A DNA stretch of 64,000 bases from assembly GCF_002221525.1 (NCBI RefSeq), contig NZ_CP011029.1, positions 620,001-684,000 of the forward strand, read 5' to 3'. Below are positions 29,863-33,938 of this stretch, piece by piece. How positions within the stretch are numbered: position 1 is the stretch's first letter; every line of letters starts with the position of its first letter. This stretch comes from Pseudoalteromonas espejiana DSM 9414 (GTDB lineage Bacteria > Pseudomonadota > Gammaproteobacteria > Enterobacterales > Alteromonadaceae). Made by a program: the position numbers and the translations under genes. Under the pieces are notes generated by a model. The model did not search any database. It was not told where the DNA came from and saw only the letters and a list, made by a program, of their open reading frames with translations.

Positions 29863-30765
29863 ATGAAGCTGAATCAATTACAAATTTTAGATGCCATTGT
29901 ACAAAGTGCAAGTTTAAGTGGCGCGGCGCTTAAATTACATAAAACTCAACCAGCGCTTACGCTTGCCATAAAAAACCTTGAAGCAAAAATAGGTTTTGAG
30001 TTACTAGATAGAACCAAGTACCGATTACAGTTAACTGAAAAGGGGCGCGTTTTTCATCGCGAAGCACAGCAACTTTTACACGCTAACGATGAATTAGCGC
30101 AACTTGCCAAAGAGCTCGCTTTAGGTAACGAGCCGCAATTTAGAATATGCTACGAGCAAATTTGCCAAAAGCAAAGTTACAACGAGATCATAAGTAATAC
30201 TTTTAGGTTGTTTAAACGTACAGAATTTAATTTAACCAGTGGCAAACGCTTTGTTTCTTTAGAGCAAGTAAATAGCGGTCAAGTAGAGCTAGGCATTGGC
30301 CCGTGGTTTGATTTATTCCATGCAACAGGGCACTTAGAAAGCCTGCCAATAGGTAAACTTAATATTGGTATAATTGCAGCGGCCAATACGTTTCCAAAAA
30401 ATATCACCTTTAGCGAGTTACAAAATTACCCCTGTTTGGCCATGTTTGAAAGCGACTTAAGTATAGACAGCGATAAGCTTTCATATTCCAAAGGCTCAGC
30501 CTTAATGAAAATAGATGACGTAACCAATTTAAAATCGTTTTTATTACAAGGCGCAGGCTGGGCAATGATGAATATAGATTACTGCGCGCCGGAAATAGAA
30601 GCTGGGCTTTTACAGCAAATACATATAAACGACAGAGAAGATGAGTTTGGTATAGAAGTTCGCGCATTCAGGCGAGATGCAATTCATCACGGGCCCGTTG
30701 CCCGCTCAATTTGGGATCAGTTTAAAGTACTCAGTGAGGCGTATTTAAATGAACGAGGATATTAA
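29863..30765 (+). CDS. LysR family transcriptional regulator
   Basis: 300 residues. The winged helix-turn-helix lies at residues 1-60 (SLSGAALKLHKTQPALTLAI) and the periplasmic-binding-like effector domain from about 90 to 295. It starts 123 bases from, and divergent to, the RND efflux operon, so control of that operon is the likeliest role. The last 17 bases overlap the alkyltransferase-like gene, which suggests coupled expression of a regulator and a DNA repair protein. The effector is unknown. Confidence 0.9.
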   Translation: MKLNQLQILDAIVQSASLSGAALKLHKTQPALTLAIKNLEAKIGFELLDRTKYRLQLTEKGRVFHREAQQLLHANDELAQLAKELALGNEPQFRICYEQICQKQSYNEIISNTFRLFKRTEFNLTSGKRFVSLEQVNSGQVELGIGPWFDLFHATGHLESLPIGKLNIGIIAAANTFPKNITFSELQNYPCLAMFESDLSIDSDKLSYSKGSALMKIDDVTNLKSFLLQGAGWAMMNIDYCAPEIEAGLLQQIHINDREDEFGIEVRAFRRDAIHHGPVARSIWDQFKVLSEAYLNERGY

Positions 30766-31060
30766 TAAAGAAACCCTCATTTACACCATTATTGCAAATA
30801 TACCTGCAGGTTTTGTGGCAAGTTACGGGCAAGTAGCAACGCTTGCAGGTTACCCGCAAAATTCACGTTTGGTAGGGCGCTTATTAAAGGTAATGCCAAA
30901 CGACTCGGTGATACCTTGGCACAGGGTAGTAAACAGCCAAGGAAAAATATCGTTTCCTGAAGGCAGTGATAAATACCAAGAACAACGCCAAAAGCTATTA
31001 TCAGAAGGTGTTAGTTTTAAAAATGATAAAGTGAATATGCGCGAGTGTAGATGGGAGTGA
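30749..31060 (+). CDS. Alkyltransferase-like DNA-binding protein (Atl/YbaZ type)
   Basis: 103 residues matching the DNA-binding domain of O6-alkylguanine DNA alkyltransferases. The active-site motif PCHRV is PWHRV here (Trp57 for Cys), the mark of Atl proteins, which bind alkylated guanines without repairing them and hand them to nucleotide excision repair. The Arg finger is in NSRLVGRLL (Arg40), and GFVASYGQVATLAG is the typical helix-turn-helix entry. The ATG lies inside the end of the LysR gene. Confidence 0.9.
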   Translation: MNEDINKETLIYTIIANIPAGFVASYGQVATLAGYPQNSRLVGRLLKVMPNDSVIPWHRVVNSQGKISFPEGSDKYQEQRQKLLSEGVSFKNDKVNMRECRWE

Positions 31061-31089
31061 TAAGACAACTCGTGAAAGATAAGTGCTAG

Positions 31090-31123
31090 TGTAGGTCGGG
31101 TAAGCGAAGCGCCATCCGACACA
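31090..31123. repeat. REP-like palindromic element, single copy
   Basis: An imperfect palindrome with outer arms GTCGG and CCGAC and flanking GTGTAG / ACAC, around a GC-rich centre (TAAGCGAAGCGCCAT). It is far richer in G+C than the sequence around it and resembles REP elements of enterobacteria and pseudomonads in layout. It lies just after the Atl gene and could also stabilise or end the transcript. No second copy is visible in this window. Confidence 0.55.
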
Positions 31124-31284
31124 GTAAAATACCTAGCCAATTATTCTCAATATTTTATGATGTCGAGTGGCTAGAGAGTGCCAATTGCAGACTCTCTGGA
31201 GTTAAGGTTTGTCGCTTTTAATTGATGCTTATATACATAGAAAATGAAACTACCTTCAATATAAATATGCCTCACAGCTGATTA

Positions 31285-31985
31285 TCAATCGTCCATGCCA
31301 CCATTTTCTTTAATTACATGCCTTAAATGGGTAATGGTATTGTCGAAACTTATCAAATTTATCTCATTATTATCGTAACCATGTCTGCGTAAATGCTCTA
31401 TGGCCATCTCAGCATTAGTTACTGCAGCGCATAGTGATCGAACAATAATATCCCGCTGAATGATTTTATAACTGCTCAATTTATCTGGAATATCATATTT
31501 GAGGTTGTGCATCTCACTCAGTAAAGTTCTTGCGGATTTGACTACCTGTATTCTTGATTTATCTAAGCTGCTATTAAGTATTTCGATTCCTACAGTGCGA
31601 ACCAAATTACTCTGTGCCTTAAAGCATAAAGCATAAAGCATAAAGCATTCTCATTTTGAAGACTTACCTCAAAGTTTTCTTGCCGTTTCTCTTCAACTCT
31701 AATTTGTAGCTCATTTGCATGTTTTCGATTGTCTTCTGCTCTTTGATTTGAGTAAGCTTGCTGTTTATTACTTTCCCCTTGTGTACGTATTGTTATAAGT
31801 ACGCCAATAAGCGATAGCAAAGCAAGCAAAGGACTAACTATACCGCTAAAGAAAGCCCCAAAGTGGGACCATGCTTCAGTTGTACCACCGTGACCAAGTC
31901 CAAAGTTTTTACTCCATAAAAACAGTGGTATGGACATAAAAACTCCCGCTAATACCAATGCAATCCCGATATATCTTTTTTTCAT
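31285..31985 (-). pseudogene. Putative abortive-infection (AbiC-like) membrane protein, split into two frames at a heptanucleotide repeat
   Basis: The 5' half (31590-31985) encodes two hydrophobic segments (residues 5-25 and about 44-66, with WSHFGAFFSGIVSPLLALLS) and a charged helix. It continues in another frame from the repeat to 31285, giving a helical C-terminal half (LRRHGYDNNEINLISFDN). The switch falls within four copies of a 7-bp unit at 31621-31648. As read, the upstream frame ends as a 131-residue protein with a spurious tail. Two or five copies would join the halves into 228 or 235 residues. The N-terminal layout recalls the putative phage abortive infection family (putAbiC); that assignment is by memory and moderate. 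It could be a phase-variable gene, a dead one or an assembly error. Confidence 0.6.
31621..31648. repeat. Perfect tandem repeat, 4 x AAAGCAT
   Basis: Four exact, adjacent copies of a 7-base unit lie inside the coding region of the split AbiC-like gene (leftward the unit reads ATGCTTT). Because seven is not a multiple of three, each gain or loss of a copy shifts the frame. This is the form of a slipped-strand contingency repeat, though four copies is short. Confidence 0.9.
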
Positions 31986-32344
31986 ATTCCCTCACAACGT
32001 CAGAGCATTTTGGTGATTTTATAAGATTACCTTTGCCATTTTTAATGAGATTTAAGCTACTTTCGCAAAAAGCATGATCTACAAGCGCTCATATTTTCTC
32101 CACTATAAAAATTAAGCATCTGGTTCTCGCGTCCTATTTATGGCTTATATAGACATCCCAGGATTTATTTAGATCTTTTAGGGTTAGTTCTTCATATTTC
32201 TCTAATAATTTTAAAATTATTAAAGTTAAACTTTGCACAACCCCTACATTTCAGCTCGCTTTTAATTAACAGGCACTAGCATGGCGTACTCAATACGAAA
32301 AGCTGCCGGATTTTGTACCTATGAAGCAACAATCAATGCATGAT
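31986..32344. other. Gene-free accessory spacer
   Basis: A 359-base AT-rich gap between two leftward genes of unknown function. I see no open frame with a ribosome site beyond a 20-codon frame at 32281, no repeats and no clear promoter. It may contain decayed coding DNA. Confidence 0.4.
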
Positions 32345-32845
32345 TTAACGACTCGTTAACGGGATGATTTTAAAAATGTAATTTTTCTGCCCGTCTCTGA
32401 CATAACTGATTTCCATACACTGGCCTTTAGTGATGAAGTTATCGGTATGATCATCTCCAGTAAAATATAAACTTTGAGTGTAATTACTAAATTGGAATCT
32501 TGTATTTTCAATTACGAACGTTTCCGTACGGTAGTTTGTTGGTGAAGTCTCAGAATTGTAATGTTTCACGCATCCAGCTACCACCTGATACTTTTTCTCA
32601 TCAATGATTTGGCGTAAATGTGAAACTTTAAAGTAACCAAAGATACTATCCGATACCAAAACGCAAGATAAAAATCCAAATCCCAAAAGAAATTTTTGGC
32701 TACTTATTTTTAAAATCTCTGAAATATATTGAGTAATATCAGAAAATTTAAATAACATAAATAAAATCAGTACTATTGGGAAAATAGGTAAAAGCTGAAC
32801 TAAGGCAAAACCTATCTGAGTTTCAAAATATGCACCTGAGTTCAA
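32345..32845 (-). CDS. Membrane protein, unknown function
   Basis: 166 residues: two hydrophobic segments (about 11-32 and 51-70), then a C-terminal soluble part of about 90 residues (residues 75-166) with alternating strand-like stretches (VVAGCVKHYNSETSPTNYR, ETFVIENTRFQFSNYTQSLY) and Cys at KGQCMEISYV. The N-terminus MNSGAYFETQIGF has no signal-peptide look, so it is probably an inner-membrane protein with a periplasmic domain. It is isolated in the accessory stretch beside the split AbiC-like gene. Confidence 0.55.
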   Translation of the reverse strand: MNSGAYFETQIGFALVQLLPIFPIVLILFMLFKFSDITQYISEILKISSQKFLLGFGFLSCVLVSDSIFGYFKVSHLRQIIDEKKYQVVAGCVKHYNSETSPTNYRTETFVIENTRFQFSNYTQSLYFTGDDHTDNFITKGQCMEISYVRDGQKNYIFKIIPLTSR

Positions 32846-32863
32846 TTTAGTCCTGATAATAAT

Positions 32864-33022
32864 TTAATAGTGCGCTAGTCGCGCATACTTCTGTCGACGC
32901 CACGCTAATTTTCCTGCATGATATAGTTTTAGCAAATAACCTAAGGTATTACTATCACTAAGTTTTCTAAAATTTTTAGGTAAAGTTAAGTGAACCAATA
33001 TGCGCGCAGTGCTCATTTTCAT
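32864..33022 (-). CDS. Possible small basic protein or gene remnant
   Basis: A 52-codon open frame (MKMSTARILVHLTLPKNFRK at its start, ending RRQKYARLAHY) with no obvious ribosome site. In the same frame, before a single TGA, another 29 codons read openly (ending RRGLIGRLLFVH), which could mean a decayed longer gene. I do not recognise it. Very uncertain. Confidence 0.2.
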   Translation of the reverse strand: MKMSTARILVHLTLPKNFRKLSDSNTLGYLLKLYHAGKLAWRRQKYARLAHY

Positions 33023-33123
33023 GAATCAATGCACAAAGAGCAGCCTACCAATTAATCCACGACGATATTTGGCCAATCTCAATATCCAGCTATCGCTCAA
33101 ACCAGACCAATGGCTTCACTAGC

Positions 33124-33753
33124 CTAATAAACATATTTACTAATGGAAATATAATGGCAAACACACCCAGCAATCACAAACAAATGCCAAATAGCATGGC
33201 TAAATTGGGTGCTTTTAGCGCTGTAAAATAAAGTACCTAAGCTGTAAAAAATGCCACCGGCGAGTAACCAATAAAGTGCGTTTACATCAATATTTAAATA
33301 AAGCGGGTATACAATAGCTAGGGCAAACCAGCCCATGAGTAGGTAAGTAGCTAACGATACTTTTTTGTTACCATTTTTAACTAGTATTTTATAAGCAACG
33401 CCACCAAGCGCGACTGCCCAAATAAAGCTAAGCGTACCCCAAGACCAAGCGCCATTTAGCGATAGTAATAAAAAGGGGGTATAAGTACCGGCTATTAATA
33501 CGTAAATTGCGCAGTGATCACACTTTTTATAAAAGGCACGCAGTTTAGGTTGTACGCTTGCGTGATAAAGAGTGGATGATAAAAACAAAATAAATAAGCT
33601 TGCCCCATAAACAGCTGTGCTTATATATGCTTTGGCACTGCTTGCTTGTTTAAACAAATCCCACATTACAAATACAGCAAAAACAATACCTAATGCGTGG
33701 CTAATTACATTGAGTTTTTCTTCTTTACGGGAATAAGGCGCGTCTATTGTCAT
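33124..33753 (-). CDS. Hemolysin III / PAQR family membrane protein
   Basis: 209 residues from ATG 33753 (AGGA seven bases upstream), with seven hydrophobic segments. The conserved features of the HlyIII/YqfA family are visible: EEKLNVISHALGI at the start, SSTLYHASVQPKLR, CDHCAIYVLIAGTYTPF and the final HAIWHLFVIAGCVCHY. Its histidines correspond to the metal site of PAQR receptors. Despite the name, lysis of cells is not established for most members; a membrane hydrolase or lipid-homeostasis role is more likely. Confidence 0.9.
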   Translation of the reverse strand: MTIDAPYSRKEEKLNVISHALGIVFAVFVMWDLFKQASSAKAYISTAVYGASLFILFLSSTLYHASVQPKLRAFYKKCDHCAIYVLIAGTYTPFLLLSLNGAWSWGTLSFIWAVALGGVAYKILVKNGNKKVSLATYLLMGWFALAIVYPLYLNIDVNALYWLLAGGIFYSLGTLFYSAKSTQFSHAIWHLFVIAGCVCHYISISKYVY

Positions 33754-33938
33754 AACAAGTCCTACCACTATTTAATTGTATTTGAGTGTACATGTGTACG
33801 CTCAAAGTTTCAATTCATGTTTAGTAACTCTTAGTAGTAGTCTTTTAATTATAAGTTTTTATTTTTTAATTGATTTTAAAAGGAATTAATACACTATAAC
33901 GCAGTCGAACGATTTCAATTATTTTAGGTTCATTGATC

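Follow-up and report, generated by a model that had tools for sequence, protein, structure and literature searches.

In the window, i.e., the whole stretch of 64 kb that was analysed (C2:620001-684000), two leftward open frames meet at a short tandem repeat. The N-terminal open frame (31590..31985, minus strand; 131 aa in the ORF listing) encodes two predicted membrane helices and the beginning of a long helix, and residues 4-118 of the C-terminal open frame (31285..31641, minus strand; 118 aa in the ORF listing) represent the remainder of the same protein. Four perfect copies of AAAGCAT (31621..31648; coding strand ATGCTTT) set the two frames out of register, and the terminal residues of the N frame past the repeat are out of frame. 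This arrangement had been described in a sequence-only reading of the locus, and sequence, coordinates as well as frames were confirmed. Its bookkeeping of the copy numbers that rejoin the frames also holds: with four copies, the frames are not continuous. Beyond the heptamer shift, neither half contains a further stop or frameshift, as judged from reading the sequence. The array is a coding tandem repeat with a unit that is not a multiple of three, which is one feature of a simple-sequence contingency gene.

Tandem repeats can be miscounted, and an assembly or sequencing error would imply that the true copy number is in frame. Such an error is extremely improbable, as the assembly consists of only two contigs (4,500,451 bases, rated 100% complete), the copies are perfect and an array of 28 bp fits within ordinary reads. 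A promoter and terminator scan was uninformative (7 and 1 sites vs. 9.6 and 1.5 in shuffles).

The split gene lies in a variable cargo interval (31061..33123), which is bordered by two conserved genes in convergent orientation and was delimited by searching 108 genomes at the DNA level. The left conserved flank encodes an MGMT-like DNA-binding-domain protein (30749..31060, plus strand; Pfam PF01035, E 1.2e-21) and the right one a HlyIII (haemolysin-III-related) membrane protein (33124..33768, minus strand; Pfam PF03006, E 1.2e-39). The gap between the flank matches ranges from 2 to 11,527 bp in 30 fetched loci having both flanks, which were chosen from the matches listed in that search (nine gaps of at most 27 bp, one of 122 bp and 20 of at least 407 bp). 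Here, the interval further contains a second cargo gene of 166 aa without a Pfam match (32345..32845, minus strand) and two dispersed repeat elements, one at 31085..31192 and one of about 245 bp at 32856..33101, both found by DNA search of the genus genomes. A 90% identical paralogue of the 166-aa gene is present on the other (main) chromosome C1 (L090:1357-1854), and beside it lies a second copy of the 31085-31192 element. Both elements recur elsewhere in a number of genus genomes and are possibly MITE- or REP-like.

Orthologues and the repeat site

A protein search with the N frame returned six proteins of 220-230 aa (P0001-P0006), each of which spans both halves as a single chain. The two frames are thus one gene split in two, as the sequence-only reading had proposed. 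Since P0004 equals P0003 minus its first four residues, five distinct orthologues are available. The closest relative is P0001 from Pseudoalteromonas sp. S3178, with an identity of 97-98% on each side. Here, 97 of 99 residues of the N frame are identical (two differences), and the C frame aligned to P0001 residues 108-222 yields 112 identical and 115 positive positions out of 115, both alignments being ungapped. The three differences in the C-terminal half are all conservative.

At the joint, P0001 reads NENALCFKAQ, which is the expected product of two heptamer units. Deduced from the protein in this one comparison, the S3178 gene would have two units vs. four in the window. P0002-P0006, which share 60-64% identity with P0001, carry NAMS(I/F)(R/K)AQ at this site, with the same length and no trace of a repeat. 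If P0001 is read as a two-unit allele, the four-copy allele of the window is out of frame. Since both halves are otherwise intact and the differences in the C-terminal half are conservative, the expansion looks recent.

A four-copy allele could still yield a useful protein, either through -1 ribosomal frameshifting in the repeat or if the two pieces are translated separately. Relative to the N frame, the C frame is indeed shifted by -1, with an ORF that opens at an ATG within the repeat, and the N piece alone retains both membrane helices. On the other side, the tract has no T run longer than three, no obvious ribosome-binding site is seen by eye before the inner ATG, and all six orthologous proteins found are single chains, which makes this outcome very unlikely.

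The N-terminus of P0001 deviates as well. Its first 12 residues are different and apparently unrelated, and the native first membrane helix is absent, for which reason the nearest relative may itself be defective. The S3178 gene may therefore be damaged at the opposite end, which would fit a gene that is easily lost. An insertion-sequence origin of residues 1-12 was considered and found no support, the back-translated exact pattern being present in 0 of 108 genomes.

Among the 108 genus genomes, a match to the C-terminal half was found in the own genome (G000) only. Against the genome contigs, a set that may omit near relatives, the C-terminal half detected no orthologue DNA and the profile of the gene and its relatives (A2) detected one distant locus, L040. 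At E<=1e-8, the 395 family genomes contained seven matching genomes besides G000, with the N-terminal module alone. A protein search with the C-terminal half of P0001 returned P0001 alone; it is weakly informative, since P0002-P0006 were missed too. No match at E<=1e-3 was obtained with P0001 as query against plasmids or with P0006 against phage records.

Structurally, an AlphaFold2 model of P0005 (mean pLDDT 80.6, pTM 0.56, ten-row alignment), which is weak around residues 21-50 (pLDDT 48-59 in those blocks), predicts a helix at residues 2-26, a very long helix at 37-135 and a helical C-terminal part. By alignment, the repeat site corresponds to P0005 residues 115-118, within the predicted long helix. 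Three heptamer units encode seven residues, i.e., one heptad, and in-frame alleles three units apart could preserve a coiled-coil register. The C-terminal part has no named domain in Pfam, NCBIfam or PDB sequences, and a fold search with the P0005 model yielded nothing usable (Foldseek, lowest E of 0.11 against PDB and of 0.05 against BFVD).

Taken together, we consider it probable that the locus represents an accessory, membrane-anchored and presumably anti-phage cargo gene, which was recently switched off by slippage at the heptamer and is revertible in principle. Here, substitutions would have produced a two-unit tandem in this lineage, followed by a later expansion by two units, either at once or stepwise in two events. 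Slipped-strand replication at the heptamer tandem would be the cause of the frame shift, which would interrupt the long helix midway and leave the gene OFF, a state that we infer at the protein level. The intact product, as modelled on the orthologue, would comprise two N-terminal membrane helices, the long helix and the helical C-terminal part. With both halves intact, the same slippage could in principle reverse the change, although at a low rate. The gene would be carried as exchangeable cargo between the MGMT-like and HlyIII genes.

The N-terminal module and putAbiC

The sequence-only reading had likened the N-terminal half to the putAbiC family of putative phage defence proteins. This likeness stands in part. 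The two-helix N module is homologous to that of putAbiC members in the genus, but the C-terminal domain modelled by PF16872 is absent. In detail, the module aligned to that of PF16872-carrying proteins (hhalign A2 vs. A5) with a probability of 97.5% over 60 columns (E 8.6e-12 for the single comparison), with profiles of 5-7 sequences each and membrane-rich stretches that can inflate such scores, and no similarity was found past the module. The corresponding comparison with a 250-aa Pseudoalteromonas subfamily (A6) reached 99.8% over 108 columns, stopping where the C-terminal parts begin, and this subfamily in turn aligned to the PF16872 proteins with 99.0% over 119 columns.

The PF16872 model (80 positions; cut-off 22 bits) aligns further downstream than the membrane module, e.g., at G074:C47 78772-79005 vs. 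78157-78468 for the module, and is present in three of the 30 aligned proteins. The proposed match to this model was not obtained, neither with the two frames at E<=1 nor with P0001, P0002, P0003, P0005 and P0006 at E<=10, and the own genome contains no match either. Membership in PF16872 is therefore rejected, as the model covers a C-terminal domain that the gene lacks. The putAbiC resemblance is real though distant, and by profile comparison it appears to reside in the anchor rather than in the putAbiC-defining domain.

The N module of about 110 residues is widespread, as the A2 profile matches 21 of the 108 genus genomes (G000 included) at E<=0.001, and its relatives carry differing C-terminal parts. 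Two phage protein families of unknown function, phrog_8999 and phrog_33781, likewise match the module (best E 4.7e-9 and 2.5e-4). They resemble the gene in the N module only, since their matches in the five orthologues end at residue 115 or earlier and do not reach the C-terminal part. No paper that mentions putAbiC, PF16872 or “putative phage abortive infection” turned up in the literature searched. Among the papers listed for phase variation in combination with abortive infection or simple repeats, none was seen to deal with the present gene family.

Genomic context and the question of a defence role

For eight distinct module relatives (L005, L006, L008, L009, L010, L011, L031, and L032) the neighbours were listed; these comprise the seven best-scoring of 25 non-own loci plus one viral record, the L031 protein being that of L007 and L040. 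A phage integrase adjoins three of the eight, with about 1.5 kb per side covered at most other loci, so that more distant integrases would be missed. At L006 the neighbour matches PF00589 (E 7.2e-18), and at L031 a PHROG integrase (E 3.1e-25; Pfam below cut-off). The putative integrase at L032 is a 391-aa neighbour that opens with the same residues as that of L031. A terminase is present in both viral records. Accessory defence genes are often located at such prophage edges.

The spot between the MGMT-like and HlyIII genes holds mixed cargo. Ten proteins from five of the 20 loci with a gap of at least 407 bp, chosen by eye as defence-like, were scanned with PADLOC, and strong matches were obtained in two of the five loci, which belong to two other species. 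The cargo of L085 includes an Old-like ATPase (E 1.8e-72), and that of L083 a kinase (best E 4.9e-27) beside a HEC-08-like protein (E 1.2e-68). One weak match was seen in L081 (E 3.2e-4), and the remaining six of the ten hand-chosen proteins had no PADLOC match. Other cargo is metabolic or transport-related (transporters, oxidoreductases), as assigned by Pfam or by look. An enrichment of the spot for defence genes is thus at most suggested.

The variable cargo spot, together with an N module common to putAbiC-type and integrase-side genes, was counted toward the explanation as anti-phage cargo, and on the sequence evidence we lean toward a defence role. It is nevertheless quite possible, if somewhat less probable, that the gene is a membrane-anchored sensor or stress gene, whose likeness to putAbiC-type and prophage proteins is confined to the N-terminal anchor; this question is separate from that of the frameshift. 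The C-terminal part without a named relative in the searches run would fit such a function, as would the transporters and oxidoreductases among the spot cargo. PADLOC also gave no significant match for the gene itself (no family for the two frames at E<=1; best E 0.012 for the five orthologues at E<=10). The integrases beside three of the eight module relatives and the defence-like cargo, chosen by eye, that two species carry in this spot argue against a function outside defence.

The heptamer array and possible switching

The array is more than would be expected by chance. TRF reports 4.1 perfect copies at 31620-31648, and none of the 16 further rows that it lists for the window exceeds 2.6 copies. 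Three exact tandem AAAGCAT units occur at this site alone in the 4.5 Mb genome; of the 108 Pseudoalteromonas genomes searched, the 107 others gave no such match, nor did any of 100 shuffles of the window. A search of viral contigs for the repeat site gave 0 matches.

For comparison, a total of 864 kb from the own genome (the 64 kb window plus 40 sampled stretches of 20 kb) was screened for perfect arrays of four or more copies with a 5-12 bp unit, a gene-sized frame being defined as at least 80 aa. Five such arrays were found, and the AAAGCAT array is the only one in a gene-sized frame with a unit that is not a multiple of three. The others are TGATAGC x8 and GCTAACC x6, both between genes, and two frame-neutral 9-mers, namely AGCGTATTT x6.1, which lies in a 56-aa frame only, and TCGTGTTCA x7.6 in an FtsX/MacB-like gene (L137:4207-4274). 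In 464 kb (the window plus 400 kb sampled from C1) four perfect arrays have at least four copies. Ten Markov sequences, each 464 kb long, contained no such array and 15 arrays with at least three copies. Heptamer runs in an 800 kb sample have two whole copies (55 cases), six (one) or eight (one), with nothing in between. Bacterial genomes are reported to contain long simple sequence repeats with a 7-nt unit (Mrazek et al., 2007, as related in PMC4679880). The AAAGCAT array is genic, in contrast to the other heptamer arrays of the own-genome sample, which are intergenic.

The TGATAGC array (L105:11916-11971, at about G000:C1 471916-471971) lies between genes, with a Wzz chain-length gene (PF02706) starting 18 bp downstream and a promoter-like sequence, as judged by eye, on its other side. 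The copies upstream of wzz number 8, 9, 8, 9, and 12 in five genus genomes. The length of heptamer tracts evidently differs between Pseudoalteromonas species, these tracts being longer than the present one and made of other units. The TGATAGC tract may serve to tune expression of surface polysaccharide. A query with this region matches at least 38 of the 108 genomes, many over the array alone and some tiling hundreds of bases. Overlapping matches tile about 550-600 bases at G100:C2:100908-101513 and G100:C1:2962742-2963287, and similar arrays are dispersed across a number of Pseudoalteromonas genomes.

An evolved phase-variable switch, with frequent copy-number change and populations mixing ON and OFF cells, would overlap with the explanation given above. 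In favour of such a switch, the copies are perfect, the array is the sole gene-borne one with a non-triplet unit in the 864 kb, and the wzz-upstream tract, which varies between 8 and 12 copies, indicates that heptamer tracts of the genus change length. Moreover, three units equal one heptad inside a helix that is predicted to be continuous, so longer in-frame alleles might fold. Against this stand the short length of only four copies, the non-repetitive site in the P0002-P0006 proteins and the mere two copy-number states, one of which is deduced from protein. In addition, the other module loci scanned (L005-L040 without L025; unit 5-12) contain no array of at least three copies. An evolved switch is therefore regarded as unlikely.

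By analogy, neuO of the E. coli K1 prophage CUS-3 may be considered the nearest mechanistic precedent for such a switch. It is described as a phase-variable O-acetyltransferase gene with a heptanucleotide VNTR of 2 to 93 copies, three units of which encode one heptad (PMC3046976). Both genes share a coding heptanucleotide tandem, a frame set by copy number and three units per heptad. In contrast, the gene here has four units in its middle and encodes an unrelated protein. The combination of phage resistance with phase variation is already known, e.g., from the reported phase-variable PglX of the Pgl/BREX system (PMC9122589), and CwpV of C. difficile is likewise described as an anti-phage gene under phase variation (PMC4737114). 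These proteins differ from the one here, for which defence and switching are candidate properties.

The gene recently switched off by slippage remains our preferred reading. In a far-reaching variant that combines the claims above, a new family of membrane-anchored anti-phage proteins, with a putAbiC-type anchor, its own C-terminal domain and an exchangeable spot, would be turned ON and OFF stochastically by the heptamer. A clonal population would then always be mixed for a costly defence, and three-unit steps, each lengthening the long helix by one heptad, would create graded variants in addition to on/off ones; we regard this as a long shot. Simple-sequence phase variation is known mainly from surface structures and restriction-modification. 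A switching tract would carry this phenomenon over to a small membrane-anchored defence-type gene in a marine bacterium, and bet-hedging against phage could then be tested cleanly. Should the frameshift be a single event, the locus would still point to a variable cargo spot and to a C-terminal domain for which the libraries searched hold no named family. It also brings heptamer arrays to attention as a source of variation in Pseudoalteromonas.

Two further tracts may be mentioned here. The nonamer tract TCGTGTTCA in the FtsX/MacB-like gene represents a frame-neutral segment, the length of which could vary. In G097, which is another species, the cargo spot contains TGGTTAA x11.7 (L072:4462-4543), with a DsbA-like gene on one side and, on the other, a gene of 184 aa that has no Pfam match.
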